The position numbers and the translations under genes are program-made. From positions 1-64,000 of the forward strand of contig JAVTVY010017483.1 in assembly GCA_036873755.1 (NCBI GenBank): a DNA stretch of 64,000 nt, written 5' to 3'. Positions 9,626-49,768 of the stretch are shown piece by piece (position 1 is the first letter of the stretch; the number at the start of each line of letters is the position of its first letter). The notes beneath the pieces are model-generated. The model was given only the letters and a program-made list of their open reading frames with translations, ran no database searches and was not told the origin of the DNA. This DNA comes from Hanleya hanleyi (Eukaryota; Mollusca; Polyplacophora; Lepidopleurida; Hanleyidae).

Positions 9626-9631
9626 CCTCAG
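9626..9631. repeat. Target site duplication, left (CCTCAG)
   Basis: Perfect 6-bp direct repeat with 16,613-16,618, immediately outside AGTAGTA. It fixes the left end of the element. Confidence 0.9.
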
Positions 9632-10045
9632 AGTAGTATAGAGAGGACGGATAAAGTCATATTTTCCAGGGAGGTAACTCTTGGTTCCCGTGGAGTTTCC
9701 GCCAGGGGGCGCCACCAGCTTGCAGGTATGACCTCACTTCCGGTCTGGGTGAATGGGCCGTGACCTGTGAACATGATAGGACATGTACTAACCTGTTTGT
9801 GGGGTTTTTCCACAATGTCGTTCACCTTCGTGTCTTTTCGGTGAGGTCCGTGTCTTTTCGGGTACGTCCGTGTCTTTTCGGTGACACGCAGGAGTGTGAA
9901 CATGATAGGCCATGTACTGACCTGTCTGTGGGGTTTTTCCACAATGTCGTTCACCATTAGGAGTGCATGTACGGACTTGTATGCCGTCCATTCATTTGAG
10001 TCGGGGACTTGGGGTCCCTACGGAAGGATTTTGCAAGTCATGGGT

Positions 10046-10530
10046 GGGTGTATGTAAAATGAGGATTTGTCTCGAAAATATAAAAAGCGGAACACGGACT
10101 TTACCTCTAAAATAGGGGAAAACCCCTATCAACTCTATCCCAAAGGGCTAATATCGGTCTCTGGCTTATCGGGTTCTGCCTGGAGTGGGTGTATGTAAAA
10201 TTAGGATTTGTCCCGAAAATATAAAAAGCGGAACACGGACTTTACCGCTAAAATAGGGAAAACCCCTATCAACCCTATCCCAAAGGGCTAATATCGGTCC
10301 CTGGCTTATCGGGGCCTGCTGAGAGAGTGGGGGAGTGGGTGTATGTAAAATTAGGATTTGTCCCGAAAATATAAAAAGCGGAACACGGACTTTATCCCTA
10401 AACTAGGGGAAAACACCTATCAACCCTATCCAAAAGGGGTTATATCGGTCCCCGGGCTTACCGGGGCCGAACGGAACACGGACTTTACCCCTAAACTAGG
10501 GGAAAACCCCTATCAAGGGCGGGCGTATAT
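10046..10530. repeat. Tandem repeat in left arm, about 135 bp x 3-4
   Basis: Units contain GTATGTAAAATTAGGATTTG, AAAAAGCGGAACACGGACTT and a small palindrome, CCTAAACTAGGGGAAAACCCC. Homologous units lie at 14,620-15,000 and 15,245-15,780, and single ones in elements 2 and 3, so this is a family-wide arm component. Confidence 0.8.
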
Positions 10531-11076
10531 TGACTCCCATTGACCTTTGACCTCCAGTATAGAGTGCGTATATTCACTACCATTGACCTTTGACCTCAAA
10601 AATGTGCATATCGTGACCTTTGACAGCCAATCAGAAGCGAGTATTTTGACCTCGTCTGACTGTATGTATGTACTGACTTGGTTCTGGGGTTTTTCCATCA
10701 CGGTTGTGCGCAGGTGTATGACGTCACTTCCGGTCTGCGTGAATCGGGCGTGACCTGGGACTATGGGATGCATGTACTGACTTGTGACTTGGTTCTGGGT
10801 ATTTGCCATCACGGGTCACGTGATCAGTTCAAGGTCATATCCAGTATAGAGTGTGTATATTCACTACCATTGACCTTTGACCTGAGCCAATCAGGAGCGA
10901 GTATTTTGACCTCGTCTAACTGTATGGAATGCATGTACTGACTTGGTTCTGGGGGTTTTCCATCACGGTTGTGCGCAGGTGTATGACGTCACTTCCGCGT
11001 GAATCGGGCGTGACCTGGCTATGGGATGCATGTACTCACTTGGTTCTGGGGTTTTTCCATCACGGAACCGGAGAGA

Positions 11077-11132
11077 GAACAACAACAACAACAACAACAA
11101 GGATGACACATGAGAGAACAACAACAACAAGA
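11077..11132. repeat. AAC microsatellite, left arm
   Basis: Two short AAC runs separated by GGATGACACATGAGAG. The mirror copy is at 13,988-14,040, and GTT runs occupy similar places in elements 2 and 3 (48,561; 27,453; 31,495). Confidence 0.8.
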
Positions 11133-11337
11133 AGTTTTTTTCATATAGTTTATTTTCCCCAATGTTACATCATACCCACGCTGGGGGAGCCGTTGGGTAT
11201 GTTTACAACTCAAGAAAACTCTTGTCCAATCAGAGGCCACCATTTTATCTGTTATATCCCTTCTTGTCCGTTAGATGTATTTTCGGCTGCTCTTGTCTGT
11301 CGCCATTTCAGAAAGTTCCATCTTTGCTCGGTGTGAC

Positions 11338-11910
11338 CTAAGCGTCGTCGGGCAGGCCTGGATATTCTTCGGGCAGCATGTCCTGACACAGTTGTTTGCG
11401 CATTCTGATCGCATTTTCCAGGGCCTCCGTGGGTGGTAGTCCCATTGCCTCTTCCAAGTGACGCTTGGTCTTCCTGATGGACCTGTGCGTGGGGTAGTCT
11501 TTCATTTCAAGCGGTAGTAAGGTATACTGTTCATAGATCGCCATGGCTGTTTTCCTGATGCGGGGGCGCATTTGGATGTACGCCTGTTGTAAATTATCCT
11601 CTCCGGCGTCCTCGATCGCTGCAGCGTAAGTATTGATAGCTGCTGTCACAATACGATCCCAGAAGGTAGGTTCTGCCTCACTTTCCACGGACGTAGGCTG
11701 ACTATCTGAGGTCAAGCTCTCCGTATCACTAGATAGACTCTCAGCAATCGCTGTTTCGGCATCAGTCGATACACTCTCAGCAGTCTCTGTATCAGCATCC
11801 GTCTCAACGGACTCCTCGAAGTCTTCAATCCCATGTATATTTTTCTGGTGTCGCATCATATCGTAATGTCTGGTGAACGTGCGTTCGCACTCAGAGCAAG
11901 TATAAGCCAT
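11338..11910 (-). CDS. Small C2H2 zinc-finger protein of element 1 (190 aa)
   Basis: I start it at the ATG at 11,908-11,910, not at an upstream in-frame codon, because a TATAAAA box lies about 50 nt upstream and the same TATA-ATG spacing occurs in element 2. Residues 1-26 form one classical finger (C5, C8, H21, H26). Residues 30-80 are acidic and Ser/Thr-rich, with repeated D-x-E-T or S-x-D patterns. Residues 83-178 are predicted helical and share a pattern with the C-terminal domain of the ATPase protein: PRIR at 116-119, YPTH at 139-142, AI at 167-168, RKQL at 171-174. I know no family for the helical part. A DNA-binding regulator or adaptor is inferred from the finger and acidic stretch. 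The frame is intact, while the copy in element 2 is broken. Confidence 0.75.
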   Translation of the reverse strand: MAYTCSECERTFTRHYDMMRHQKNIHGIEDFEESVETDADTETAESVSTDAETAIAESLSSDTESLTSDSQPTSVESEAEPTFWDRIVTAAINTYAAAIEDAGEDNLQQAYIQMRPRIRKTAMAIYEQYTLLPLEMKDYPTHRSIRKTKRHLEEAMGLPPTEALENAIRMRKQLCQDMLPEEYPGLPDDA

Positions 11911-11957
11911 GTTGACGGTTGAACGTCGACTGTGCGTGTTTTTGGAAATACGCTTGC

Positions 11958-11964
11958 TTTTATA
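11958..11964 (-). promoter_or_regulatory. TATA box of the small finger gene
   Basis: TATAAAA followed by GCAAG, about 50 nt upstream of the chosen ATG. The block from CTGTCTATAAAAGCAAG to the ATG is nearly identical in element 2 (47,819-47,873). Confidence 0.7.
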
Positions 11965-11966
11965 GA

Positions 11967-12145
11967 CAGTAACGCCCATCAACGCTTAGCTTAACGCTTC
12001 AACGCCCTGGTGAATTAGCTCAGAAGCTCTGATTTTCATGGAATTGACACCAATTCATCGAAATGCACTGACGCCCGTCAACGCCCGTCGCTACGCCTTA
12101 ACGCCCGTCTCAACGCCTTAACACACTTTCTTAACGCTTTAACGT
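11967..12145. repeat. AACGCC iteron-like array of element 1
   Basis: Many short copies of a word like TTAACGCCCRTC or YAACGCYT at roughly 10-15 base spacing, between the helical ORF and the small finger gene. Similar arrays occur in element 2 (46,068-46,092, 47,760-47,815, 48,610-48,810) and both arms of element 3. No role is known. Protein binding by one of the finger proteins is a guess. Confidence 0.7.
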
Positions 12146-12525
12146 CGTTTAATGATGCGTTCGAACAAATGTTTCTTTTGTGCTATTGCTCTGGCATACG
12201 CCGCTTTCCAGTTCATGCCCGAGGTTTTCAACATCGACGCTGTTCGTTCAATTTCCATATGGACTGGGTACTTATCCAACAATTTCATATGGGTCACGAG
12301 GTCGACATACCGCTGACGTAAAGCCCGTCGTAGTCTGGGTGCCAATCTGTTATGGCCTAAAATTGCGGCTTCCTCTTTCGAGTACCCTTTGCGTTGAAAC
12401 TTGTTTTCTGTGGCCCTCAACGTCTTGCCCATCTCGGCGTTCATACCTTCTTTGAACAAATCCTTCCATAGCCTCGAGTTCACATTATGTTTATTCCCTT
12501 GTGCGAGTTTGAGTTGGTCCTTCAC
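12139..12525 (-). CDS. C-terminal helical part of the ATPase gene, split off by a frameshift
   Basis: This frame has no ATG where it overlaps the ATPase frame (the codon at 12,523-12,525 is GTG) and stays open further upstream, to around 12,570. In element 2 the equivalent sequence is in frame with the Pro/Gln-rich linker of the ATPase, so I read it as the 3' part of one ancestral gene, displaced by a single missing base near 12,565. It is basic and predicted helical, with LW at 19-20, PRLR at 63-66, YPVH at 86-89, AI at 113-114 and KKHL at 117-120. That pattern recurs in the C-terminus of the small finger protein with the same 23-residue PR-to-YP spacing. No family is recognised. A programmed frameshift is possible but unsupported. 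Confidence 0.7.
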   Translation of the reverse strand: MKDQLKLAQGNKHNVNSRLWKDLFKEGMNAEMGKTLRATENKFQRKGYSKEEAAILGHNRLAPRLRRALRQRYVDLVTHMKLLDKYPVHMEIERTASMLKTSGMNWKAAYARAIAQKKHLFERIIKRR

Positions 12526-13367
12526 AGTTGGGTGATATTCCGGGACTGATGGTATGAAGGGGCCCGCTGTATGGGCGTGGATGGCTGCTGCTGCTCTACC
12601 AGATGTGGACTCGGTGGATGATGTCGGGGTATATGACTTTGCGGTGATCCCTTGCCGGGTAACAGGTGGGTCGTCAGCCGGCGATCTTCAGGGGTATGGG
12701 CTTTTAAATCTACGAATAGGTAGCCGTACGGACGACTTGTTGCCCCTTGAAACGCCTGCATGAAATGGTCGATGTTCTGAGGATAAATTCGACTACCAAA
12801 CACACGGATTTGTGCTCTGTCAATGGGATTGGAGAACAACACAAAGTATTGGCAGTTCAAGGCAATATCTCTGGACGCCTTCCCTTGAGGAAAGAGATTC
12901 TGGGTCAAATAGATGACGGACAGATTCCTGTGATGGGATCCTTTAGTAAACAAGTCGGCAACGTGTGAATTGTCCTTGGCCGCACTCATCAGATCATCTA
13001 GCACTACCACGTTGGTCTGCTCGGGGTCAAAGTAATACGGTTCGTCTATGTCGTGAGGAATCCCTGGGACGAAACTCACATTCTGTAATCGCGTAGTTTC
13101 GTAGGCGGGCTGCCATTGGCTATAACACCAAACAACACGTGTCGGAGCTGTGGTTGCCACACCTTCCTCTAAGAACTTCATCACCCAGGACGTCTTTCCA
13201 CATGCCGTAGGGCCGCTCACCGTCATCGCATAGGGATGCTCTACTGCACTTGTTGGACCTATAGCGGGACTCGGCGGTGTCTCTTGGTTGTGTTTGCCTT
13301 GAAGGTGCCTGAGCATACTATCGCGACGAGAGAAGGTTCTATGACAGAACGTACACGTACACGACAT
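12522..13367 (-). CDS. C2H2-finger packaging-type ATPase of element 1 (281 aa to the frameshift)
   Basis: Residues 1-26 form a C2H2 finger (C5, C8, H21, H26). Residues 45-230 look like an A32/FtsK-HerA-type P-loop ATPase: Walker A GPTACGKTS at 52-60, Walker B VVVLDDLM at 120-127, and a conserved FTKGSHHRNLSVIYLTQNLF stretch (140-159) carrying the polar T-Q-N. In Polinton/Maverick and adintovirus-like elements such ATPases are thought to translocate DNA into capsids; that role here is inferred. A Pro/Gln/His-rich linker (about 230-275) ends in a frameshifted tail; the helical domain continues in another frame. ATG at 13,365-13,367, with a TATA-like box about 52 nt upstream. The equivalent gene in element 2 has several frameshifts. 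Catalytic motifs here are intact, so inactivation looks recent. Confidence 0.82.
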   Translation of the reverse strand: MSCTCTFCHRTFSRRDSMLRHLQGKHNQETPPSPAIGPTSAVEHPYAMTVSGPTACGKTSWVMKFLEEGVATTAPTRVVWCYSQWQPAYETTRLQNVSFVPGIPHDIDEPYYFDPEQTNVVVLDDLMSAAKDNSHVADLFTKGSHHRNLSVIYLTQNLFPQGKASRDIALNCQYFVLFSNPIDRAQIRVFGSRIYPQNIDHFMQAFQGATSRPYGYLFVDLKAHTPEDRRLTTHLLPGKGSPQSHIPRHHPPSPHLVEQQQPSTPIQRAPSYHQSRNITQL

Positions 13368-13417
13368 GTTGATCTGTCGACCAATACATAAGGACTGATG
13401 AGGGACACTTGTTCATT

Positions 13418-13425
13418 CTTATATG
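13418..13425 (-). promoter_or_regulatory. TATA-like box of the ATPase gene
   Basis: CATATAAG on the minus strand, about 52 nt upstream of the ATPase ATG. Element 2 has CATATAAG about 55 nt upstream of its own ATPase ATG (46,134-46,141), so position and sequence are conserved. Confidence 0.6.
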
Positions 13426-13427
13426 TA

Positions 13428-13520
13428 CAGACACCACCACCAACACCACCACCACACACTACCACCACACACACACACACACACACCACCACATTCCACC
13501 ACCACCACCACCACCTGGTG
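13428..13520. repeat. CAC/CA microsatellite upstream of the ATPase promoter
   Basis: Runs of CAC, ACAC and CACCAC, followed by a CCACCTGGTGGTGG palindrome and GAGCTC words. It produces His-, Thr- or Pro-rich open frames on both strands that should not be read as proteins. Confidence 0.9.
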
Positions 13521-14619
13521 GTGGTGGGAGCTCCCGTGTGCTCTTGGAGCTCAAAGCGTGTGGAGCTCAGAGCTCGGAAGTGACATTTGCATATGACCTC
13601 AGTGAGGTCACTTCCGCTTCCGTTCACGTGACCGGAACTGACCTTTGACCCCTGCGCGCGCTAACAGTTCCGGTCACGTGGGGGGCAACCACCCACCGAG
13701 GAAAATGCGATCAGAATGCGCAAACAACTGTTTCAGGACATGCTACCCGAAGAATATCCAGGCCTGCCCGACGACGCTTAGGTCACACCGAGCAAAGATG
13801 GAACTTTCTGAAATGGCGACAGACAAGAGCAGCCGAAAATACATCTAACGGACAAGAAGGAATATAACAGATACAAATGATGGCCTCTGATTGGACAATA
13901 GTTTTCTTGAGTTGTAAACATACCCAACGGCTCCCCCAGCGTGGGTATGATGTAACATTGGGAAAAATAAACTATATGAAAAAAAACTTCTTGTTGTTGT
14001 TGTTCTCTCATGTGTCATCCTTGTTGTTGTTGTTGTTCTTTCTTCTCCGGTCCCGTGATGGAAAAACCCCAGAACCAAGTGAGTACATGCATCCCATAGC
14101 CAGGTCACGCCCGATTCACGCGGAAGTGACGTCATACACCTGCGCACAACCGTGATGGAAAATCCCCAGAACCAAGTCAGTACATGCATTCCATACAGTC
14201 AGACGAGGTCGAAATACTCGCTTCTGATTGGCTGTTAAAGGGCACGATATGCAAATTTTTGAGGTCAAAGGTCAATGGTAGTGAATATACACACTCTATA
14301 CTGGATATGACCTTGAACTGATCACGTGACCTCCCCGTGATGGCAAATACCCAGAACCAAGACAGTACATGCATCCCATAGTCCCAGGTCACGCCCGATT
14401 CACGCAGACCGGAAGTGACGTCATACACCTGCGCACAACCGTGATGGAAAAACCCCAGAACCAAGTCAGTACATACATACAGTCAGACGAGGTCAAAATA
14501 CTCGCTTCTGATTGGCTGTCAAAGGTCACGATATGCAAATTTTTGAGGTCAAAGGTTAATGGTAGTGATTATACGCACTCTATACTGGAGGTCAAATGTC
14601 AATGGGAGTCAATATACGC

Positions 14620-15780
14620 CCTTGATAGGGGTTTTCCCCTACTTTAGGGGTGAAGTCCGTGTTCCGCTTTTTATATTTTCGGGAAAAATCCTTATTTTAC
14701 ATGCACCCACCCAGGCCCTGATAAGCCCGGGTCCGATATGACCCCTTTTAGATAGGGTTGATAGGTGTTTTCCCCTAGTTTAGGGATAAAGTCCGTGTTC
14801 CGCTTTTTATATTTTCGGAACAAATCCTAATTTTACGTACACCCACTCCCCCACTCTCTCAGCAGGCCCCGATAAGCCAGGGACCGATATTAGCCCTTTG
14901 GGATAGAGTTTATAAGGGTTTTCCCCTATTTTAGAGGTAAAGTCCGTGTTCTGCTTTTTATATTTTCGAGACAAATCCTCATTTTACATACACCCACCCA
15001 TGACTTGCAAAATCCTTCCGTAGGGACCCCAAGTCCCCGACTCAAATGAATGGACGGCATACAAGTCCGTACATGCACTCCTAATCACGTGACCGCCGCA
15101 TGATGGAAAAAACCCAGAACCAAGTCAGTACATCTCATAGAGTCATACCCAGGTCACGCAATTAAAAACCCCACAGACTACACAGAAAGGTGTGAATATA
15201 CGCACTCTTTACTGGAGGTCAAAGGTCAATGGGAGTCAATATACGCCCTTGATAGGGGTTTTCCCCTAGTTTAGGGGTTAAAGCCCGTGTTCCGTTTTTT
15301 ATATTTTCGGGAAAAATTCTGATTTTACATGCACCCACCCATGCACCCAGACTCCGATAAGCGCGGGGACCGATATAACCCCTTTTGGATAGGGTTGATA
15401 GGTGTTTTCCCCTAGTTTAGGGATAAAGTCCGTGTTCCGCTTTTTATATTTCCGGGACAAATCCTAATTTTACATACACCCACTCCCCCACTCTTTCAGC
15501 AGGCCCCGATAAGCCAGGGACCGATATTAGCCCTTTGGGATAGGGTTGATAGGAGTTTTTCCCTATTTTAGCGGTAAAGTCCGTGTTCCGCTTTTTATAT
15601 TTTCGAGACAAATCCTAATTTTACATACACCCACTCCAGGCAGAACCCGATAAGCCAGAGACCGATATTAGCCCTTTGGGATAGAGTTGATAGGGGTTTT
15701 CCCCTATTTTAGAGGTAAAGTCCATGTTCCGCTTTTTATATTTTCGAGACAAATCCTCATTTTACATACACCCACCCATG
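14620..15780. repeat. Tandem repeat in right arm, six or more units in two blocks
   Basis: Reverse-complement units of the left-arm repeat form two blocks separated by a spacer at 15,070-15,245. The block duplication explains most of the arm length difference. Confidence 0.75.
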
Positions 15781-15915
15781 ACTTGCAAAATCCTTCCGTA
15801 GGGGCCCCAAGTCCCCGACTCAAATGAAAGTCCGTACATGCAATCCTAATGGTGAACGACATTGTGGAAAAACCCCACAGACAGGTCAGTACATGGCCTA
15901 TCATGTTCACACTCC

Positions 15916-16347
15916 ACTCGACACAATCTCGGACAATGTAGGACATTAGAACCTCGATCCGCACTGGTAAGAATCCATATTGGCATCCATGTTGAAAGAA
16001 TAATATCACGCGGAAACTCCGAACAGCGCATGTCAGCTGTATGACTTCCGTTACCATGGACACTGATGGAGATTAGCTCAAGAAGAAAAACCGAGAGAAA
16101 CACCTCAAATTAGAAGAGATTCTTCCCGGGTAGAATCAAGGGAATGTCCATTTCATTTGGATATATATTTTATCTCCCGATAAGAGAGAAATACAACGAG
16201 GACTATGTGAGGGGAAACACATCCTACAGCATGTGATGTGCCTCACGTGCGGCGGATCACGGTTTACAGCTGAGAGCTGTAAAATCTTTACACCATTAAT
16301 ACGCGAGGTATTATGACTTCACGGAATAAGCCGAGCAGTCGCGAATG
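15916..16347. mobile_element. Nested insertion of 432 bp in the right arm
   Basis: The left arm reads continuously through the equivalent site. Here the sequence is interrupted between two copies of GTTCACACTCC (15,905-15,915 and 16,348-16,358). The insert has no recognised gene or clear inverted ends. The 11-bp direct repeat looks like a target duplication, which would suit a small non-autonomous transposon or SINE. Confidence 0.7.
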
Positions 16348-16612
16348 GTTCACACTCCTGCATGTCACCGAAAAGACACGGACGTACCCGAAAAGACACG
16401 GACCTCACCGAAAAGACACGAAGGTGAACGACATTGTGGAAAACCCCCACAGACATGTCAGTACATGTCCTATCATATTCACAGGTCACGCCCCATTCAC
16501 CCAGACCGGAAGTGACGTCATACCTGCAAGCTGGTGGCGCCCCCTGGCGGAAACTCCACGGGAACCAAGAGCTACCTCCCTGGAAAATATGATCCGTCCT
16601 CTCTATACTACT

Positions 16613-16618
16613 CCTCAG
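16613..16618. repeat. Target site duplication, right (CCTCAG)
   Basis: Second copy of CCTCAG directly after the terminal TACTACT of the element. Confidence 0.9.
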
Positions 16619-24943: not shown

Positions 24944-27900
24944 CTATTTGATGTTATGGTAAAACATCACCTGCGATGTACTCAAAGGGATTGTTTTATC
25001 AAACACATGGAAACTTTGATATTCGTTGATATTTATGCGAAGAATATTTAACAAATACAGTCGAGTAATACTCTTTGTAGCTATCAGTCTTTGTGTATAC
25101 GTTTGGTGAGACTAGTGACTTTTCGAGTTTCTCGAACAATAAACTCAAGCCGCTAAGACCGCTAATATAAAATCTCAGACCAGTTATTTGGTCAGTCATT
25201 TTAACTCTCAAACTAATGGTTGTACAAGTTAATGGTTCCATTACAACGAATATCAGTCATTTGCTGTTGAGATAATTACTATTGAAGAGCATTGGATATG
25301 TTGTGAAAAGCTACGGTTCACCGACCGTATATTGCCCTTTATTCTTTTGAAAATACACGCCATTCGCTACTCTCGTGAAGTATATATTTATTCGCATGAG
25401 CCGTTTTTGCTACAGCAGGTTGCATTTAGCGATTATATTGATATTTCATTCGAACCTAAATGATAAAATAGAGATGAGAGGAACGCAACTTCGTTTGATT
25501 TTTGGAAGAAATCATATACTTCTAGACCAACAGCCCTGGACAGTGTCTTGATAGTCTGGACTTCATTGTTTAATGCAGTCCAGGCCGTCAGTGATCGCGT
25601 CGAACGCGTAACTGGAAAAATCAAACCATTGAAAAACAGGGAATCTGTCGGACTACTTTCGTGGTGAAACAGACGTCTGTGGTCTGGGAGACAAACCAAT
25701 TAGTGTAGCATGAGATTTCCAATTATGGCAGCAATGTTAATTTCTTGTACCCAGCAGTGATCCTACTATTTAATTGCAGGCTGTAATTTAAGCGTAAGAC
25801 ACGTTTGTCTTGTTCTGGAGACAAAAAGCCTCACCAACCCGGAATTACTGTATTTCAACCCACATCCTGCAGCGTTGTCGCGGGCGAAGGATCTCAACAA
25901 AAGTCACTGTCTATAGATTTATTTCCAGTGTTTTCATTCCCATTTTCTCGTGAAGGCGTCAGTACCTAGGTCGATTGCAATACAGTCAGATTAATAAGTT
26001 CTTTAGTTTCAAGGCGGTCGACCAAACAGGATATCACTTTCTTCAAATATCTAATCAGTCTTGGATGGATTTATGGATGGAATTGACAACACTGAACTCC
26101 ATATTACATTTCAACCGATTCACACATCCTTGGTCGAAGCTCTTTTTAAACGTTTTGGGTTCCGGTTTTCAATAATTAGATGGATGAAGAAATAGGAACA
26201 ATATCACCTGGGTGACGGCATATCAGCTTACATCCATGCTAGGTATCAGGAACAGACTTCCATCAATCGTATAACTCTTTTAGAATGTCTTAAATCAAAC
26301 GAAACCGAAGGTCGCATCCAAAAGTTAAAGTACACCACAGTCCTACACTTGCATTTGAATAAATATTTTGTGTTTGCAGGATAAAAGATAACAGTGGACG
26401 TGTTAGTAGTAGGAAGAGAGCACATTCAGTATCATTTTTCCGCGCCTAGAGTTATCTCCTCCTGTGGAGTCACGCGGAGGTGACGTCACATCCGGGTCAA
26501 AGGTCACGTCCGGGTCAATTGTCACTTCCGGGGTCAAAGATCACGTACGGGTTCAAAGGTCACTTCCGGTCACGTGTTGGCCCAGCAGGAGTTATCTGCC
26601 CCTAAATAAGGCCGTACGTTTCAGTAATTTCAATGTTAAACCTAATGAGCAACCCAGGCATGGACACTTGCGGTATGGGGTGTGGCACCTTTTTTTGTCC
26701 CGAGCTGTAGAACACGAGGGCAGGGGTCTCAAGTTCATGTGTTGAATTTCGCTGACAATTTCAGGGCGGGGGTAGACATGTTAGGTCCATTCCGGCGCAA
26801 TGGACAATGACCTGGCACCTTGGGCAACTCACTCATGGACATTTGCGGTATGGGGTGTGGCAACTTGTTTTCTCTGCCTCGCGTAGAAGACGGTGGTAGG
26901 GGTCTCGTGGCCATAGGATGACTTTCATTGGAAAGTTACCGTGCTCATGCGTAGTCCATAGGTAGATATGGGGTGGACGTTTTGGGGTGTGGGTGGGCCA
27001 CTATTGGGCTGATTTGGCCGTGCGATGTATCCGAGTGAAGCACTCGTATGGGAGCGTCAGACTGGATGGGTGTGGAGTGTAAGTTAACCTGTAGAGCACA
27101 TGGGCAGACAGGGAATTCTGAGTAAAGGGCATTGGAACGTCATTAGTTGTGGCGGAACGATTTATGGTCCAAATTGGTCATGTGAAGTATCAGTTTAAAG
27201 CTCTCCTGGGGTAGTATCAGACTGGATGGGTATGGAATGGAAGTAAGGCTATGTTGCGCAAGCACAGTCAGGGAATTGTGGAAAAAGGGCATTGAAATAG
27301 ACGTTTTGGGGTCAAGGTGGGCCCATGGGCGTATGGGTCGGGGAGGATATCCTTGTGAAGTGCTCCTCCAGGTCGATCAAGTCATGGGTGGGTGCATGTA
27401 AAACTTTCCCTGGAAAACGGACTTTACACGTTGTGAGTCATAGAAATGGAAATGTTGTTGTTGTTGTTGTTGTTGAGATAGTATAGTCTCTCAATTTCGA
27501 GGAAGTTAAAATCAAGGGAAGTAATGCAGTTGCCCCTTAGTAGTAGAGAAAGCAGAAACCCAGTATATTTGCTCTATGACCCCCTTTGTGAAGAGTTTTA
27601 CAGTAACGCCATAACGCCCTATCTGAACGACTTAACGCCCTATCTTAACTCTCTGACGCCTTATCGTAATGTCTTAACGCCCCATCTTAACGCCTTAACG
27701 CATTATCCTAACGCCTTAACGCCCTAATAGAACAGCTTTTTATCTTTTGCGCGGGATTGTACCATGCCATTATATAATACTAAAGCGTCGGCAAGGTGTA
27801 TGTATCAATCCATTCACAACACAGACTAAACATGTTGAGGCTTGGTGGTCCCCGATGTCGTCATCTCTCTCTCCATCTCCCAAATCGCGCCCATTTCCAC

Positions 27901-28978
27901 TTCCGAATCTCCCTTTCTCTACTGCTCCTCGAGTGCACAGGCGCATATCACTCCCAATCTGGACAATAGAGAATATTATAGAGTCCACATCAAATGACAG
28001 CTTTTGATTGGACAGGAGCAGCCTGTTAGGGAGTTGAGATAGGCGTTAAGGCGTTGCGTGGGGATTCGCCTTCTCTTTCTGCATGTATAGCTATGCAGAT
28101 AATATTTAAGTGCCTGGGGCACAGTCAACACCTCCGAAAGTGCCCTTTCTGCTACACCTCAGGGCGTATACGCGTTTCACCTCCAGTCTGGCTCTACCCG
28201 ATATGATCTACAAATAGAACAGGGGTTTTCCCAGGAACACCGCCGTACAATGTCCCGGTGTAGAGCGATGACGACATCGGAGACCACCATGTCTCAACAT
28301 GTTTTAGTCCCTGGTGTGACTGGATTGATACATACACCTTGTCGACGAGTTAGTATTATATAATAGTGTGATACAATCTCGCGCAAAAGATAACAACCTG
28401 TTATGGTAGGGCGTTAAGGCTTTAGGATAAGGCGTTACGATGGGGCGCTAAGGCGTTACGAAAATGTGTTAGGGCGTTAAGATAGGGCGCTAAGACGTTC
28501 AGATAGGGCGTTATGGCGTTACTGTAAAACTCTACACAAAGGTCATAGGGCAAAAATACTGGGTTACTTCCCTTGATTTTTGCTTCCCCGAAATTGAAAT
28601 TGAGATACTATACTATCTCAACAGCAACAACATTTCCATTTCTATGACACACCAGGTGTAAAGTCCGTTTTCCGCATCTTTTCCAGGGAAAGTTTTACAT
28701 CCACCCATTCATGACTTGATCGGCATGAAAGAGCACTTCACAGAAATACCCTCCACGATCCAGTACGCCCCTATGGGCTCACCTCGACCACAAAACGTCC
28801 ATTCCAATGTCCTTTTCCCACAATTCCTTGTCTGCGCATACGCGCCATAGCCTCACTTCCACTCCACTCCTATCCAGTCTGACGCTCCCCCAACGAGTGC
28901 TTCACTTTGATACCTCACACGGTTCAGTCATCCCAATAGTAGCCCACCTAGACCCTAAAACGTCCACCCCAGATCTGC
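24944..28978 (+). repeat. Tandem duplication, unit 1 (about 4.03 kb)
   Basis: Nearly identical to 28,979-32,994, with scattered substitutions and small indels. The junction at 28,979-28,982 shares only CTAT with both parents, suggesting end-joining or microhomology. Unit 1 contains host repeat sequence followed by a right-truncated copy of element 3. Confidence 0.9.
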
Positions 28979-28982
28979 CTAT
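26405..28982 (+). mobile_element. Element 3, first copy, right end lost at duplication junction
   Basis: Begins AGTAGTAGGAAGAGAGC after CGTGTT (26,399-26,404). The left arm and most of the right arm are present. The right arm stops at the tandem duplication junction after AGATCTGCCT, so its outer ~540 bases are missing. Content is as in the full copy at 30,448. Confidence 0.8.
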
Positions 28983-30441
28983 TTGATGTTATGGTAAAAC
29001 ATCACCTGCGACGATTTGAAGGATCTCAACAAAAGGGATTGTTTTATCAAACACATGGAAACTTTGATATTCGTTGATATTTATGCGAAGAATATTTAAC
29101 AAATACAGTCGAGTAATACTCTTTGTAGCTATCAGTCTTTGTGTATACGTTTGGTGAGACTAGTGACTTTTCGAGTTTCTCGAACAATAAACTCAAGCCT
29201 CTAAGACCGCTAATATAAAATCTCAGGCCAATTATTTGGTCAGTCATTTTAACTCTGAAACTAATGGTTGTACAAGTTAATGGTTCCATTACAACGAATA
29301 TCAGTCATTTGCTGTTGAGATAATTACTATTGAAGAGCATTGGATATGTTGTGAAAAGCTACGGTTCACCGACCTTATATTGCCCTTTATTCTTTTGAAA
29401 ATACACGCCATTCGCTACTCTCGTGAAGTATATATTTATTCGCATGAGCCGTTTTTGCTACAGCAGGTTGCATTTAGCGATTATATTGATATTTCATTCG
29501 AACGTAAATGATAAAATAGAGATGAGAGGAACGCAGTCTGATTTTTGGAAGAAATCATATACTTCTAGACCAACAGCCCTGGACAGTGTCTTGATAGTCT
29601 GGACTTCATTGTTTAATGCAGTCCAGGCCGTCAGTGATCGCGTCGAACGCGTAACTGGAAAAATCAAACTATTGAAAAACAGGGAATCTGTCGGACTACT
29701 TTCGTGGTGAAACAGACGTCTGTGGTCTGGGAGACAAACCAATTAGTGTAGCATGAGATTTCCAATTATGGTAGCAATGTTAATTTCTTGTACCCGGCAG
29801 TGATCCTACTATTTAATTGTAGGCTGTAATTTAAGCGTAAGACACGTTTGTCTTGTTCTGGAGACCAAAAGCCTCACCAACGCGGAATTACTGTATTTCA
29901 ACCCACATCCTTCAGCGTTGTCGCGGGCGAAGGATCTCAACAAAAGTCACTGTCTATAGATTTATTTCCAGTGTTTTCATTCCCATTTTCTCGTGAAGGC
30001 GTCAGTACCTAGGTCGATTGCAATACAGTCAGATTAATAAGTTCTTTAGTTTCAAGGTGGTCGACCAAACAGGATATCACTTTGTTCAAATATCTAATCA
30101 GTCTTGGATGGATTTTTGGATGGAATTGACAACACTGAACTCCATATTACATTTCAACCGATTCACACATCCCCGGTCGAAGCTCTTTTTAAACGTTTTG
30201 GGTTCCGGTATTCAATAACCAGGTGGATGAAGAAATAGGAGCAATGCCAACTGGGTGACGGCATATCAGCTTACATCCATGCTAGGTATCAGGAACAGAC
30301 TTCCATCGATCGTATAACTCTTTTAGAATGTCTTAAATCAAACGAAACCGAAGGTCGCATCCAAAAGTTAAAGCACACCACAGTCCTACACTTGCATTTG
30401 AATAAATATTTTGTGTTTGCAGGATAAAAGATAACAGTGGA

Positions 30442-30447
30442 CGTGTT
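30442..30447. repeat. Target site duplication, left (CGTGTT), element 3
   Basis: Matches 33,531-33,536. The host segment copy at 44,270-44,290 shows the same site uninterrupted. Confidence 0.8.
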
Positions 30448-31627
30448 AGTAGTAGGAAGAGAGCAAATTCAGTATCATTTTTCCGCGCCTAGTGTTATCT
30501 CCTCCTGTGGAGTCACGCGGAAGTGACGTCACATCCGGGTCAAAGGTCACGTCCGGGTCAATCGTCACTTCCTGAGTCAAAGATCACGTACGGGTTCAAA
30601 GGTCACTTCCGGTCACGTGTTGGCCCAGCAGGAGTTATCTGCCCCTAAATAAGGCCGTACGCTTCAGTAATTTCAATGTTAAACCTAATGAGCAACCCAG
30701 GCATGGACACTTGCGGTATGGGGTGTGGCACCGTTTTTGTCCCGAGCTGTAGAACACGAGGGCAGGGGTCTCGAGTTCATGGGTTGAATTTCGCTGACAA
30801 TTTCAGGGCAGGGGTAGACATATTAGGTCCATTCCGGCGCAATGGGCAATGACCTGGCACCTTGGGCAACTCACTCATGGACATTTGCGGTATGGGGTGT
30901 GGCAGCTTGTTTTCTCTGTCTCGCGTAGAAGACGGTGGTAGGGGTCTCGTGGCCATAGGATGACTTTCACTGGAAAGTTACCGTGCTCATACGTAATCCA
31001 TAGGTAGATATGGGGTGGACGTTTTGGGGTGTGGGTGGGCCACTATTGGGCTGATTTGGCCGTGCGATGTATCAGAGTGAAGCACTCGTATGGGAGCGTC
31101 AGACTGGATGGGTGTGGAGTGTAAGTTAACCTGTAGAGCACATGGGCAGACAGGGAATTCTGGGTAAAGGGCATTGGAACGTCATTAGTTGTGGCGGAAC
31201 GATTAATGGTCCAAATTGGTCATGTGAAGTATCAGTTTAAAGCTCTCCTGGGGTAGTGTCAGACTGGATGGGTATGGAATGGAAGTAAGGCTATGTTGCG
31301 CAAGCACAGTCAGGGAATTGTGGAAAAAGGGCATTGAAATAGACGTTTTGGGTTCAAGGTAGGCCCATGGGCGTATGGGTCGGGGAGGATATCCTTGTGA
31401 AGTGCTCCTCCAGGTCGATCAAGTCATGGGTGGGTGCATGTAAAACTTTCCCTGGAAAACGGACTTTACACGTGGTGAGTCATAGAAATGGAAATGTTGT
31501 TGTTGTTGTTGTTGTTGAGATAGTATAGTCTCAAATCAAGGGAAGTAATGCAGTTGCCCCTTAGTAGTAGAGAAAGCAGAAACCCAGTATATTTGCTCTA
31601 TGACCCCCTTTGTGAAGAGTTTTACAG

Positions 31628-31752
31628 TAACGCCATAACGCCCTATCTGAACGACTTACCGCCCTATCTTAACTCTCTGACGCCTTATCGTAATGTCTTA
31701 ACGCCCCATCTTAACGCCTTAACGCATTATCCTAACGCCTTAACGCCCTAAT
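31628..31752 (+). repeat. AACGCC iteron-like array, left arm of element 3
   Basis: About nine copies of a TTAACGCCCTATC-like word at roughly 12-14 base spacing. The inverted equivalent lies at about 32,438-32,560. In the first copy the arrays are at 27,604-27,727 and 28,405-28,520. Confidence 0.8.
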
Positions 31753-32437
31753 AGAACAGCTTTTTATCTTTTGCGCGGGATTGTACCATGCCATTATATA
31801 ATACTAAAGCGTCGGCAAGGTGTATGTATCAATCCATTCACAACACAGACTAAACATGTTGAGGCTTGGTGGTCCCCAATGTCGTCATCTCTCTCTCCAT
31901 CTCCCAAATCGCGCCCATTTCCACTTCCGAATCTCCCTTTCTCTACTGCTCCTCGAGTGCACAGGCGCATATCACTCCCAATCTGGACAAGAGAGAATAT
32001 TATATCAGTCCATCAGTCCACATCAAATGACAGCTTTTGGTTGGACAGGAGCAGCCTGTTAGAGAGTTGAGATAGGCGTTAAGGCGTTGCGTGGGGATTC
32101 GCCTTCTCTTTCTGCATGTATAGCTATGCAGATAATATTTAAGTGCCTGGGGCACAGTCAACACCTCCGAAAGTGCCCTTTCTGCTACACCTCAGGGCGT
32201 ATACGCGTTTCACCTCCAGTCTGGCTCTACCCGATATGATCTACAAATAGAACAGGGGTTTTCCCAGGAACACCGCCGTACAATGTCCCGGTGTAGAGCG
32301 ATGACGACATCGGAGACCACCATGTCTCAACATGTTTTAGTCCCTGGCGTGACTGGATTGATACATACACCTTGTCGACGAGTTAGTATTATATAATAGT
32401 GTGATACAATCTCGCGCAAGAGATAACAACCTGTTAT

Positions 32438-32560
32438 GGTAGGGCGTTAAGGCTTTAGGATAAGGCGTTACGATGGGGCGCTAAGGCGTTACGAAAATGT
32501 GTTAGGGCGTTAAGATAGGGCGCTAAGACGTTCAGATAGGGCGTTATGGCGTTACTGTAA
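32438..32560 (-). repeat. AACGCC iteron-like array, right arm of element 3
   Basis: Reverse-complement words of the GATAGGGCGTTAAG type, mirroring 31,628-31,752 across the central loop. Confidence 0.8.
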
Positions 32561-33530
32561 AACTCTACACAAAGGTCATAGGGCAAAAATACTGGGTTAC
32601 TTCCCTTGATTTTTGCTTCCCCGAAATTGAAATTGAGATACTATACTATCTCAACAGCAACAACATTTCCATTTCTATGACACACCAGGTGTAAAGTCCG
32701 TTTTCTGCATCTTTTCCAGGGAAAGTTTTACATCCACCCATTCATGACTTGATCGGAATACCCTCCACGATCCAGTACGCCCCTATGGGCTCACCTCGAC
32801 CACAAAACGTCCATTCCAATGTCCTTTTCCCACAATTCCTTGTCTGCGCATACGCGCCATAGCCTCACTTCCACTCCACTCCTATCCAGTCTGACGCTCC
32901 CCCAACGAGTGCTTCACTTTGATACCTCACACGGTTCAGTCATCCCAATAGTAGCCCACCTAGACCCTAAAACGTCCACCCCAGATCTGCCTATGGACTA
33001 CGCATGCGCATGGTAACTCTTCAGCGAAATTCAACCTATGACCACGAGACCCCTCCCATCGTCTTCTAGATCGCGAGACAGTGAAAACAAGATGCCACAC
33101 CCCATATCGCAAATGTCCATAAGTGGGTGCCAGGCCATTGTTCACCTCGCCGGAATGGACATAACATGTCCAGTCCAGCCCTGAATTTTACAGCGAAACT
33201 CAATCCATGGCTTCGATACCCCTGCCATCGTGTTCTTTAGCTCGATACAGAAAAAACAAGGTGCCACACCCGATATCACAAATGTCCATGCGTGGGTGGC
33301 ACATTAGGTTTAACATTGAAATCACTGAAGCGTACGGCCTTATTTACGGGCAGATCACTCCTGCTGTGCCGTCACGTGACCGGAAGTGACATTCGAACCT
33401 GGACGTGACCCTTGACCCGGACGTGACCTTTGATCCGGAGGTGATGTCACCGGAAGTGGCATCACCTACGCGTAAATCCACAGGGGGAGATAACTCTGTG
33501 AGCCCAAAAATGATATGACTTTGCTCTCTT

Positions 33531-45357: not shown

Positions 45358-45363
45358 TATGAT
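45358..45363. repeat. Target site duplication, left (TATGAT), element 2
   Basis: Perfect match to 49,763-49,768, directly outside AGTAGTAGT. Confidence 0.9.
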
Positions 45364-46092
45364 AGTAGTAGTATAAGCGTAAATTCCTTAGGAAAAATGT
45401 GGGTGGAAACAATGTGGTGGCATGACGTGGCAATGACGTCATATCCGGGTCAAAGGTCACATCCGGGTCAAAGAGCACATCCATGTTAAAGGTCACATCC
45501 GGGGCAAAGGTCACTTCTGGGTCAAAGGTCACTTCCGTTGAAGTGAACAAGAGTGATCGCCCCCTACATACAAGACCCCAGTGACTTCCAAAGTTAATCT
45601 ATACGGGCCGGCGCAGTGGATATGTCCATACTGGGAAACCCACCCATGGTCATTTGCGGTATGGGTTGTGGCCCCTTGTTTTCTTCGTCTCACCACGTAG
45701 AACACGATGATAGGGCTCGCGAACCATTTGTTGGAATTTTTTTAAAAAGTTACTGTGCGCATGCGCACTGGGCAAGTATCGCTGGGGTGGACGTTTTGGG
45801 GTCGAGAGTATGGAAATGGACGTTTTGGGACCCTAATGGTCCGATTGGGCCGGGTGAGGTGTCAAAGTGAAGCGCTCCTCCAGGGCGATCAAGTTATGGG
45901 TGGGTTCTTGTAAAATTAGGATTTGTCCCGAAAATATAAAATGCGGAACACGGACTTTACCCCTAAACCATGGAGAATCATGGATGTTTTGTAGTTCAGG
46001 CCATCCCTGATCCAAATGAACGACCAGAGTGAGTGAGGGAGTGAGTGAGTGAGTGAGGCGTGCCCAACGCCCGTCTTAACGCATGGACGCAC
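45364..46092. repeat. Left arm of element 2
   Basis: Outer part: tandem words like GTCAAAGGTCACATCCGG (45,435-45,535). Then CATTTGCGGTATGGG, a GCGCATGCGC palindrome at 45,757-45,766, one unit of the GGATTTGTCCCGAAAATATA repeat, a GAGT microsatellite (46,021-46,060) and AACGCC words. The inverted partner is at 48,780-49,762. Confidence 0.8.
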
Positions 46093-46133
46093 TAACGATG
46101 GTGACTGAGTGAGTAAGTGAGTGAGTGAGTGGT

Positions 46134-46141
46134 CATATAAG
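46134..46141 (+). promoter_or_regulatory. TATA-like box of the element 2 ATPase gene
   Basis: CATATAAG about 55 nt upstream of the ATG at 46,194, in the same relative place as in element 1. Confidence 0.6.
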
Positions 46142-46193
46142 GTCGTTTGAACACCATTAGCCTAAGTCTGTATCCACCCTCTGACCGGGTACC

Positions 46194-47351
46194 ATGTCGA
46201 CTACATGTACGTTCTGTCAGAAGACACTCTCTCGTCGCGACAATATGCTCAGACATATGCGTCTAATGCATAGACAAGAGACACCACCGAGTCCCGCTAT
46301 AGGTCCAGCAAGTGGAGTAGAGCGTCCCTATACGATGACGATGAGCGGCCCTATGGGATGTGGAAAGACGTCCTGGGTGATGAAGTTCTTAGAGGGAAGG
46401 TGTGGCAACCCCAGCTTCGACACGCGTAGTATGGTGTTATAGCCAGTGGCAGCCCGCGTACGAGATTACGCGATTAAGGAATGTGAGCTTCATTCCAGGA
46501 ATTCCTCACTATATAGACGAACCGTATTACTTCGATTCCGAGCAGACCAACGGGGTAGTGCTCGATGGCCTGATGAGTGCGGTCAAGGACAATTCGAAAA
46601 TCGCGAACCTATTCACCAAAGGGTCCCATTATCGCAATCTGTCCCTCATCTATTTGACTCAGAATCTCTTTCCTCTAGGTAAGGCGTCCAGAGATATTGC
46701 CTTGAACTGCCAATACATTGTGTTGTTCTCCAATCCCATCGACAGAGCACAAATCCGTGTGTTTGGTAGGCGGACGTTTTGCAGGCGTTTCAAGCGTTCG
46801 TAGATTTAAAAGCCCATGCCCCCGAAGATCGCCGGCTGATGCCCCACCTGTTATTCGGCGAAAGATCACCGCAATGTCATATATCCCTACACCATCCACC
46901 GAGTCCACACCTGGCAGCACCCGTCCAGCAGCAGCAACCCGCCCCCATACAGCCGGTCCCCTTCATACCATCAGTCCCGGAATATCACCCAACCGTGAAG
47001 GACCAACCCAAACCCGTACAAGGGAATGAACATAATGTGAACTCGAGGCTATGGCAGGATTTATTCAAAGAAAGTATGGACGCCGAGATGGGCGAGACGT
47101 TGAGGACCACAGAAAACAAGTTTCACCGCACATTGGCACCCAAACTACGACGGGCTTTATGTCAGCAGTATGCCGACCTCGTGACCCATATAAAATTGCT
47201 GGACAAGGACCCCGTTCATATGGAAATCGAAAGAACAGCGTCTATGTTGAAAACCTCAGGTATCAACTGGAAAGCGGCGTATGTCAGAGTAATAGCACAA
47301 AAGAAACATTTGTTCGAACGCATCATTAAGATCAAAAGCGTCTCACTATAA
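46194..47351 (+). pseudogene. C2H2-finger packaging-type ATPase of element 2, several frameshifts
   Basis: The first frame (46,194-46,442) has the N-terminal finger and Walker A GPMGCGKTS. A shift near 46,400-46,440 leads to a frame (46,402-46,803) with YSQWQPAYE, FTKGSHYRNLSLIYLTQNLF and the region after it. A second change near 46,770, with some deleted codons, leads to a frame (46,779-47,351) with the Pro/Gln linker and basic helical C-terminus. Walker B reads VVLDGLM, so one of two acidic residues is replaced. The linker and helical domain are in one frame here, showing they belong to one gene. About 80% similar by eye to the copy at 12,139-13,367. Not functional as it stands. Confidence 0.8.
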
Positions 47352-47354
47352 ATA
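47346..47354 (+). promoter_or_regulatory. TATA box of the 113-residue gene, overlapping the ATPase stop
   Basis: CTATAAATA begins within the last codons of the helical domain; the TAA stop at 47,349-47,351 is part of the box. The next ATG is at 47,386, about 38 nt downstream. Confidence 0.55.
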
Positions 47355-47385
47355 ACCCACACGACACCATTCCCCTCATTTCACC

Positions 47386-47727
47386 ATGAGCACTGCAGAG
47401 TTCACCTTGTGTGAACCCGACAACGAGGATATTCTAGCCGAAGCGTTACGTCGAGCCAACGTTCAAGTCCATGCTATAATTGATACAGCTCAAGGTGGAT
47501 CCACCGTTCAGCACCAACGCATGCGTTGTCATCTTATCACGCTCACAGATGACATCCAATGGATGACACGGGTATGTCTTCTGCTGCATAAGAAACAGAT
47601 AATACCGATTAAGGATACCAACATGACTACCCGTGCCCAGAATCTGCCGACCCTGCATGAGGCATTTCACACCTTTATGGAGACACAGCTGGAGACGGGA
47701 AATTGTCTTCTTCAACCTCCAAAATAA
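47386..47727 (+). CDS. 113-residue protein of element 2, unknown function
   Basis: Intact ATG-to-stop frame between the ATPase and the small finger gene, with its own TATA box. It has an acidic N-terminus (CEPDNEDILAEALRRAN) and probable helices around 15-35 and 85-105. No finger, P-loop, signal peptide or membrane segment is seen, and I recognise no family. It has no counterpart in element 1, where the sequence between the helical domain and the small finger gene is only iteron-like spacer. It remains open although both neighbouring genes are broken, which could be chance at this length or recent constraint. Confidence 0.6.
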   Translation: MSTAEFTLCEPDNEDILAEALRRANVQVHAIIDTAQGGSTVQHQRMRCHLITLTDDIQWMTRVCLLLHKKQIIPIKDTNMTTRAQNLPTLHEAFHTFMETQLETGNCLLQPPK

Positions 47728-47818
47728 TGTTGTCCGTTCAATGATGATCGACAATGCATAAGCCGTTGGGATAGGACGTTATAAGGTATTGAGACGGGCG
47801 TTGACGGGCGTTACTGTC

Positions 47819-47825
47819 TATAAAA
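47819..47825 (+). promoter_or_regulatory. TATA box of the small finger gene, element 2
   Basis: TATAAAA, 46 nt upstream of the ATG at 47,871. The surrounding block matches element 1 almost base for base. Confidence 0.7.
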
Positions 47826-47870
47826 GCAAGTGTATTCCCAAACGTGCACAGCCGACGTTCAACCATCAAC

Positions 47871-48386
47871 ATGGGTTATACATGCTCTGAGTGCGAACGC
47901 ACGTTCACCAGACATTACGATATGATGCGACTTTCCATCCAGACTTCGAGGAGTCCACTGGGGATGCAGATACAGAGACTGTTGAGAGTCTATTTACTGA
48001 CACGGAGAGCTTGATCTCCGATAGTCAGCCTACATCCCAAGGAAGTGAAGACCAACCTACATTTTGGGATCGTATTGTGAGAGCAGCTATTAATACTCAT
48101 GCTGCACCGATCGAGGACGCCGGACAGGATAAATTACAACAGGCGTACATCCAAATGCGTCCCAGCATCAGGAAAACAGTCATGGCGATCTATGAACACT
48201 ATATTCTACTACCGCTTCAAATGAAATGACCCCACGCACAGGTCCCTCATGAAGACCAAGCGTCACTTAGAAGAGGATATGGAGCTACCACACACCGAGG
48301 CCCTGGAAAATGCGATCAGAATGCGCAAACAACTGTTTCAGGACATGCTGCCTGAACAGTATCCTGGCCTGCCCGGCGATGCTTAA
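47871..48386 (+). pseudogene. Small C2H2 finger protein of element 2, broken
   Basis: The ATG and first Cys pair are present, but a deletion near 47,930 removes the finger histidines and shifts the frame. The acidic stretch and FWDRIV to YEHYILLPL region continue in the frame read at 47,891-48,229, which ends early at a TGA caused by a second small deletion near 48,227. The C-terminal 50 codons then follow in another frame to 48,386. Counterpart of 11,338-11,910. Confidence 0.8.
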
Positions 48387-48560
48387 GTTACAGCGAACAA
48401 AGATTGAACTTTCTGAAATGGCGACTTCTGATTAGACAAGAGCAGACGAGAATACATCTAACGACAAGAGCCTACTTGAATTGTAAACATACCCAACGCG
48501 GCTCCCCCAGCGTGGGTATGATGTAACATTGGGGAGAATAAAATGATTGATCTCTCATTC

Positions 48561-48596
<36 letters not shown>

Positions 48597-48597
48597 G
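48561..48597 (+). repeat. GTT microsatellite of element 2
   Basis: About 12 GTT units after the conserved CCCAGCGTGGGTATGATGTA block. Equivalent runs occur in elements 1 and 3. Confidence 0.9.
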
Positions 48598-48779
48598 ATC
48601 TGTCTACATCATGGCGTGAAGGCGTTATGCTAGGGCGTTAAGGCGTTCAGATGGAGCGCTAGGGCATTAATGCGTTACGATAAGGCGTTGATGGGAGTCA
48701 CTGTAATTCGAGGAATTGGGGGCAATTCCATGGAAGTTAAAAAAATCATATCTTCTGGACTATTTCACCAGGGCGTCCA

Positions 48780-49762
48780 TGCGTTAAGACGGGCGTTGGA
48801 CACGCCTCACGGGCGTTGGGCACGCCTCACTCACTCACTCACTCACTCACTTTGCGCGTTCATTTGGACCAGGGATGGCCTGGACCCCTAAACAGCCATG
48901 ATCCTCCATGGTTTAGGTGTAATGTCCGTATTCCACTTTTTTTATATTTTCGGGACAAATTCTAATTTTACATGCACCCACCCATTGCTTGATCGCCCTG
49001 GAGGAGCGCTTCACTTTGATACCTCACCCGACCCACCTCGGTCCCAAAACGTCTATTTTCATACTCTTTGTCTTCTGCGCATGCGTAGAATGACGTCAGT
49101 TCCACGTCTCACCCATCTCGTCGGATGCTCCCTCACGTATGCTATACATTGATACCTCACTGGACCCAATCGGACCACTAGGTACCCCTCTCGGCCCCAA
49201 GACGTCTATTTCCATACACTTTGTCTACTGCGCATGCGTAGAATGACGTCAGTTCCACGCCATACCCATCCCGGCGGATGTACCTTCACGTATGCTACAC
49301 AATTGGACCATTAGCGGCCCCTCTCGGCCCAAAAACGTCCACCCCAGCGCTACTTGCCCAGTGCGCATGCGCACATTAACGTTTTCAAAAATTCCAAACA
49401 ATGGCTTCGCAACCTCTATCATCGTGTTCTACGTGGTGAGGCGAAGAAAACAAGGGGCCACAATCCATACCGCAAATGACCATGTGTGGGTTTCCCAGTA
49501 TGGACCTATCCACCGCGCCCGTATAGATTAACTTTGGAAGTCATTGGGGTCTTGTATGTAAGGGGAGATCACTCTTGTTCACTTCACCAGAAGTGACCTT
49601 TGATCAGAAAGTGAACTTTGACCCGAATGTGACCTTTGACCTGGATGTGACCTTTGACCCGGATGTGACCTCTGACCCGGATATGACGTCATTGCCAGGT
49701 CATGCTACCCACATTGTTTCCACCCACATTTTTCCTAAGGAATTTACGCTTATACTACTACT
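48780..49762. repeat. Right arm of element 2
   Basis: Reverse complement of the left arm, lengthened by a repeated segment of about 150 bp (49,050-49,280) with TGCGCATGCGTAGAATGACG in each copy. The outer end carries TGACCTTTGACC-type words (49,590-49,690). Confidence 0.8.
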
Positions 49763-49768
49763 TATGAT
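49763..49768. repeat. Target site duplication, right (TATGAT), element 2
   Basis: Directly follows the terminal ACTACTACT. Host sequence resumes as ACATTTAGATCATTGCTCAT, identical to 34,574-34,593. Confidence 0.9.

Follow-up and report, generated by a model that had tools for sequence, protein, structure and literature searches.

Background

Non-autonomous transposons usually retain only their ends, and phage satellites such as P4 and the phage-inducible chromosomal islands (PICIs) are small genomes that redirect the packaging of a helper. Among the systems closest to the locus described here, autonomous Polinton/Maverick elements are about 15-20 kb long (passages of PMC5718144), and Polinton-like viruses are mostly without pPolB (passages of PMC11071308). 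The packaging domain of adenovirus consists of seven A-repeats at 220-400 bp that are bound by IVa2 (passages of PMC5033970). In this paper a stretch of 64,000 nucleotides from the mollusk Hanleya hanleyi (contig JAVTVY010017483.1, positions 1 to 64,000; hereafter the window) was analyzed together with the assembly that holds it (2.48 Gb in 52,793 contigs). Element 1 of this window, at 9632..16612, probably belongs to an abundant kind of non-autonomous mini-Polinton that carries protein genes and is a satellite of the integrase- and capsid-coding Polintons of this genome.

Structure and gene content of the elements

Element 1 (6981 bp) has the ends AGTAGTA and TACTACT; AGTAGTAT begins at 9632, and ATACTACT terminates at 16612. 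The left copy of its target-site duplication, CCTCAG (9626..9631), is matched perfectly by the right copy (16613..16618), so that a 6-bp duplication and AGTAGTA-type inverted ends are both present, as in Polinton/Maverick. The left inverted arm spans about 9632..11419 (forward) and the right arm about 13700..16612 (reverse); the extra length of the right arm comes from about 430 bp near 15916-16347 and another repeated block. Gaps interrupt the pairing of the arms, with 96-99% complementarity in the 8 longest ungapped blocks (177-273 nt) and 86-90% in gapped blocks. A palindromic-read assembly artefact is unlikely for the copies read, because the arms diverge by several percent and by indels. 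A chance origin of the ends was rejected, since a perfect 6-bp duplication stands beside AGTAGTA/TACTACT in each of the 7 elements whose two ends were read.

Two genes were identified in element 1, both on the reverse strand. ATP1, a C2H2 finger joined to an A32-type ATPase (12522..13367, 281 amino acids up to a stop), agrees with other copies only up to near residue 270, and its C-terminal domain lies in a different frame (12139..12687); in many other genomic copies finger, ATPase, and C-terminal domain form one open frame. The second gene (11338..11979) encodes a C2H2 protein of 213 amino acids (aa) with a finger and an ATP1-like C-terminal domain, and without the ATPase domain. In single comparisons this protein matched the C-terminal piece of the window ATP1 at E 2e-4 and the homologue P0001 at E 9e-7, and it looks like the same protein as ATP1 minus the motor. 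A word-based search of 130 candidates gave no homologue of it at E<=0.001.

Element 2, found by comparing element 1 with the remainder of the window, occupies 45364..49762 (4399 bp) between two copies of TATGAT (45358..45363 and 49763..49768), and has related genes and outer arms that differ from those of element 1. It carries, all on the forward strand, an ATP1 homologue with its frame in pieces (46194..47351), a 113-aa open reading frame (ORF; 47386..47727) with no counterpart found in element 1 and no Pfam match, and a remnant of the 213-aa C2H2 gene (47807..48383). Within the outermost 600 bp, what its left arm has in common with element 1 is a core repeat (72 bp, 90%), and the inner stretches adjoining the genes are also common to both elements. 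Of the 7 elements with both ends read, only these two carry ATP1.

With tblastn queries for the major capsid protein (MCP), protease, and minor capsid protein (mCP), matches in the window, elements 1 and 2 included, were limited to the ATPase and companion genes; PolB (query from L032) and integrase (query from L026) had no match in the window. Major and minor capsid genes of their own, a feature of virophages, were therefore not found by tblastn in either window element. Element 1 is not an autonomous Polinton, because PolB, integrase, and capsid/protease genes were searched for and not found, and because its length, like that of element 2, is short of the autonomous range. The original prediction had described an element of 7 kb with AGTAGTA ends, a perfect CCTCAG duplication, kilobase-long inverted arms, and an A32-like packaging ATPase, lacking the other core genes. 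All of this was confirmed, with gapped arms, with an ATPase recognized by its homologues and fold more than by Pfam, and with a further query (ATP2, the ATPase of the arm-sharing elements below) that likewise found only the ATPase and its companions. As a correction, the ATPase is not the only gene kept: the finger protein is also present, and element 2 adds the 113-aa ORF.

Homology, copies, and selection of ATP1

The sole Pfam match of ATP1 is a weak one to Pox_A32 (E 0.15, below cut-off). At E<=0.001 it has 395 homologues, and PF04665 or PF02456 is present in many of the 120 that were listed. Named relatives include cnidarians, and the clusters of related ATPases from other genomes comprise as many as 139 members. 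The top 7 PDB matches of the predicted fold (mean predicted local distance difference test score, pLDDT, 74) are all the STIV2 B204 genome-packaging NTPase, at E 1e-6 to 3e-5 and a target-normalized template modeling score (TM) of 0.52-0.60. Homology and predicted fold thus support ATP1 as a packaging-type ATPase, and neither groups it with an unrelated family. A bacterial or phage origin is disfavored, since none of 30 pattern matches in IMG/VR was confirmed as a relative of the ATPase and the PHROGs matches to the ATP1 protein are weak (best E 0.008, hitting the finger).

A genome search with ATP1 gave 138 scored matches of 90-100% identity on 122 contigs. Of the 138, 31 have in-frame stops and 107 have none, and in 74 of these 107 the open frame runs to 400 aa or more; since only the best-scoring among 36,872 first-look candidates are included, intactness is biased upward. 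Two matches occur on 16 of the 122 contigs, and in 14 of these 16 they stand back to back, minus then plus, in agreement with the palindromes read at L018 and L056.

Selection was examined in 20 ATP1 copies with ORFs of 409-411 aa, chosen for long frames, with a FastTree tree and domain limits set by hand. The ratio of mean dN (nonsynonymous) to mean dS (synonymous divergence) was 0.38 for the whole gene and 0.20 for the ATPase domain. On internal branches the ATPase domain had 7 nonsynonymous to 28 synonymous changes against an expected 2.54:1 (p 3e-10; omega about 0.1), and on terminal branches 59:44 (p 0.001). The C-terminal domain showed 11:9 on internal (p 0.07) and 43:13 on terminal branches, and the linker was near neutral (15:7 and 25:6). 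In these 20 intact-frame copies the ATPase domain has been under purifying selection on internal branches. This constraint implies that the motor was retained while the lineage multiplied, and held more loosely on the youngest branches.

Arm-sharing elements in the same genome

With 40 of 5495 candidates scored, the outer 769 bp of element 1 matched 36 contigs at 86 places. Longer stretches were read from 15 of the 36 and searched for genes by tblastn, several loci being partly covered. Capsid or protease genes were found in 7 of the 15 (C35122, C38447, C27735, C42237, C10644, C3703, and C19751), ATP1 with the 213-aa gene in 2 (C15952, C11518), the 213-aa gene alone in 3 (C40687, C2689, C34176), tandem companion-gene copies with integrase pieces in 1 (C16399, 25.7 kb), and nothing or a trace in 2 (C32070, C18981). 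Integrase was present in 4 of the 15 (C3703, C19751, C10644, C16399). Short stretches from 4 further arm contigs (among L001-L008) held protease (C17452, C10822), a companion gene (C39653), or nothing (C46676). The 25.7-kb element, at C16399:13790-39536 (L009-L012), has a GACGAT duplication and consists largely of tandem companion genes.

The terminal 152 bp of element 1 are 95% identical to the right end of the integrase-coding C10644. As in a non-autonomous Polinton, the ends of element 1 thus recur in a relative within its genome that codes for integrase. Two helper-like elements were read end to end, C3703 (14.9 kb, CCCAGG duplication) and C19751 (13.2 kb, CAGCAG duplication). Both have genes for integrase, ATP2, capsid protein, an mCP-like protein, protease, and smaller proteins, several of them interrupted; C3703 also has an inner end pair that shows no matching duplication. 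C10644, whose left end lies beyond the stretch read, holds integrase pieces and the genes for ATP2, MCP, an mCP-like protein, and protease, together with companion genes. At L022, L023, L026, and L029 the arms contain an additional AGTAGTAT-type end, as if these were nested or recombined elements.

The helper integrase is of the rve type (PF00665, E 4e-9). A capsid piece found 998 homologues, which include proteins named F54H12.2-like; mollusks and sea cucumbers are among the named relatives. A homologue from another genome was modeled (mean pLDDT 69) as a double jelly roll that matches the capsid proteins of PBCV-1, mavirus, and Sputnik at E about 2e-11. In a genome search with a capsid piece, 143 matches were scored among 24,211 candidates. 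They lie on 142 contigs, are at least 95% identical, and have no in-frame stop, and 108 of the 143 have frames of at least 400 aa; with the scoring confined to top matches, they suggest a recent burst. The R133-, R235-, and PC4-like ORFs tested had no confident Pfam match. About 1.6 kb outside the C38447 element, an ORF at L015:1077-2102 (reverse) has a CARD domain (E 1e-14); its PC4-like match (E 4e-5) does not reach the curated cut-off.

By tblastn, ATP1 was not found in the capsid elements read. A shortened helper is not the simplest account of element 1, because ATP1 and ATP2 are 43% identical in the core and lie on opposite sides of a split with support 0.94, ATP1 with 42 database homologues against ATP2 with the rest. 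The tree held 123 sequences from an ATP1-seeded search, and the finger motif was detected in 62.

A tandem core repeat in the arms

Both arms of element 1 contain the core repeat in tandem, pointing inward at a spacing of about 140-150 bp: 4 copies, the last partial, at 10031..10494 (forward), the first of them 400 bp from the element end, and 7 copies at 14644..15788 (reverse). Element 2 has a single copy in each arm, at 45890..45966 (forward) and 48913..48991 (reverse), and is an independent case, as its outer arms are otherwise unlike those of element 1. At all 21 outer ends examined the repeat points inward (88 copies inward, 0 outward), the nearest copy being 367-2135 bp from the outer end. 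It was not found at the PolB loci L032, L034, and L035 or at the ATP1 locus L056. By analogy with the adenovirus A-repeats, the core repeat is a candidate packaging signal. Two head-to-tail units of 4.06 kb, 97% identical, at 24944-32994 of the window hold weak core-repeat pieces and internal inverted repeats.

Proposed way of life and points against it

Mobilization in trans by a helper integrase is supported by the anatomy. An rve-type integrase would act on the AGTAGTA ends, insert the element, and leave the 6-bp duplication; it would have acted in trans because the element has none, and most likely came from the 13-15 kb elements with matching ends and arms. The linear DNA may then be copied from its ends by the family B polymerase of other elements, where end-primed strand-displacement synthesis with fold-back would give palindromic forms. 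Finally, the finger-ATPase protein could recognize the tandem repeat in the arms, as IVa2 binds the A-repeats of adenovirus, and drive the short DNA into helper capsids, with the 213-aa paralogue as a possible DNA-binding partner or regulator of ATP1. Packaging into the helper capsid by the element's own motor would be the likeliest reason for the selection on the ATPase, and the element may have a role in virion assembly. Dependence would be at least two-tiered, because PolB was not detected in the helper-like elements either.

The original prediction of a satellite with a helper is borne out in part. A plausible helper, matching ends and arms, and many gene copies were found, but the ATPase is not that of the arm-sharing elements (43% identity). 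In the loci read, neither many copies without 6-bp duplications nor a longer version carrying ATP1 with integrase and polymerase was seen, the duplications being checkable in only two ATP1-bearing elements.

Several observations weigh against the satellite reading. The proposed satellite is known here from genomic sequence alone, and the two ATP1-bearing elements with checkable duplications both lie in the window, where both ATP1 copies are broken. Five ATP1 places were read at length (the two of the window, L017, L018 with L031, and L056). Among these five, both ends and a duplication were seen only in the window's two; L017 and L018 showed a single end each, and the ATP1 palindrome at L056, a truncated locus, has neither AGTAGTAT ends nor the core repeat. 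The ends were located through the AGTAGTATA word, so that only the duplication is independent among the end features, and the loci were picked by their match to the arms of element 1, so that some of the sharing of arms and repeat follows from the selection of loci (element 2 is exempt). The inner AGTAGTAT-type ends at L022:6678, L023:4521, L026:5598, and L029:1103 stand outside the orientation count, and at the first two of them the core repeat is on the outer side. For ATP1, the query-normalized TM is just 0.39-0.45, with RecA-fold ATPases next in the ranking; the finger region is unconstrained among the copies (5:1 and 10:2); and the choice of the 20 ORFs for long frames, like the top-scored sample of 138, biases intactness upward. 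In the helper-like elements PolB was not found by tblastn, and the labels protease, mCP, and PC4-like are presumptive: the protease ORF matches Peptidase_C5 at E 0.068 in one copy and has no match in another, no PDB relative of it was found, and the PC4-like ORFs have no PC4 match.

Polymerase loci and alternative explanations

A genome search with PF03175 gave 164 matches, the listed rows lying on 79 contigs, none of which is common to the arm, ATP1, or MCP lists. The lists of MCP (142), ATP1 (122), and PolB (79) contigs have zero overlap, which is suggestive only, as they hold top-scored or listed matches; two contigs of the arm list recur in the ATP1 list and one in the MCP list. This separation is what a segmented endogenous virus would give, in which polymerase, integrase/capsid, and finger-ATPase lie on separately integrating segments, all needed for one infectious cycle. 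Such an animal double-stranded DNA virus of the Polinton lineage would recognize its integrase/capsid and finger-ATPase segments by the shared ends and the arm repeat, and the small element would be a genome segment, not a parasite. This explanation is unlikely. The selection on ATP1 agrees with it, as does the failure to find PolB in any of the 15 + 4 arm-sharing contigs searched (several loci partly covered) with a query able to detect a 34%-identical PolB at C4967. At C4967, moreover, the PolB pair has a TACTACT end, and no capsid or integrase match was found in the two stretches read. However, the PolB loci read share with the other elements only the generic AGTAGTA-type end, without the core repeat (at C4967 one end was read); the PolB locus C994 adjoins a protease gene, 43% identical to the helper protease, as in an ordinary Polinton; and the helper-like elements already carry an ATPase of their own, ATP2. 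At L034 (C4967:20400-30300) and L035 a finger-PolB gene forms an outward-facing inverted pair, with arms 91.6% identical over 3.6 kb and nested palindromes between them; past the TACTACT end of C4967 there are ATPase fragments.

Slightly more doubtful is a plain deletion derivative, an old ATP1-bearing Polinton that was stripped of its other genes and spread in trans, its ATPase being functionless today. Non-autonomous DNA elements are common, and the broken window copies and the in-frame stops among the scored ATP1 copies would be expected of one. However, the ATPase domain is constrained on internal branches while the linker drifts, ATP1 is unlike the ATPase of the arm-sharing elements, and the related clusters elsewhere are large. 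An interfering element, in which the finger-ATPase and its finger-only paralogue act as decoys that block helper packaging to the benefit of element or host, would suit the high copy number and two proteins with a common finger and C-terminal domain, one motor-less, but selection keeps the motor domain and the putative decoy role is very improbable.

The satellite reading is therefore preferred. Elsewhere in the window, 54819-62257 holds long tandem-repeat-like stretches that are open in several frames.

Significance and comparison with known systems

No Polinton satellite that carries a packaging ATPase of its own was found described in the open-access literature searched, as judged by titles and the beginnings of abstracts (a scope apart from Repbase and subscription papers), or in passages of PMC3671162, PMC6431247, PMC5718144, and PMC11071308. 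If the satellite reading is true, an endogenous animal DNA virus would have a natural satellite in a small element that carries a selected packaging motor and leaves integrase and capsid to others, and particle formation by present-day Polintons would become testable. The finding also bears on the origin of multipartite DNA viruses.

Element 1 is like Polinton/Maverick in its AGTAGTA-type ends, 6-bp duplication, inverted arms, and packaging-type ATPase. It differs in its 7 kb against 15-20 kb, in that PolB, integrase, protease, and a capsid gene were not found, and in an ATPase that bears a C2H2 finger and a C-terminal domain and is adjoined by a motor-less paralogue. Polinton-like viruses resemble the helper-like elements in that pPolB is mostly absent from the former, in the passages cited, and was found in none of the latter. 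However, they are mostly without an rve integrase and have other replication proteins, whereas the rve integrase is retained in the helper-like elements and the satellite is without either. Element 1 resembles non-autonomous DNA transposons in its ends in cis, enzyme in trans, and high copy number, but has retained protein-coding genes, including one under purifying selection. With the virophages Mavirus and Sputnik it shares a packaging-type ATPase and, as proposed here, dependence on another virus; virophages encode their own capsid, and none was found in element 1. The likeness to adenovirus, with IVa2 and the A-repeats, is one of layout: a packaging ATPase and tandem repeats some hundred bases from the terminus. 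In element 1 the repeats, as putative binding sites, are longer, occur in both arms, and stand about 140-150 bp apart. P4 and PICIs are bacterial and, to our knowledge, have unrelated proteins; what they have in common with element 1 is the small genome and, if the proposal holds, the use of helper packaging.

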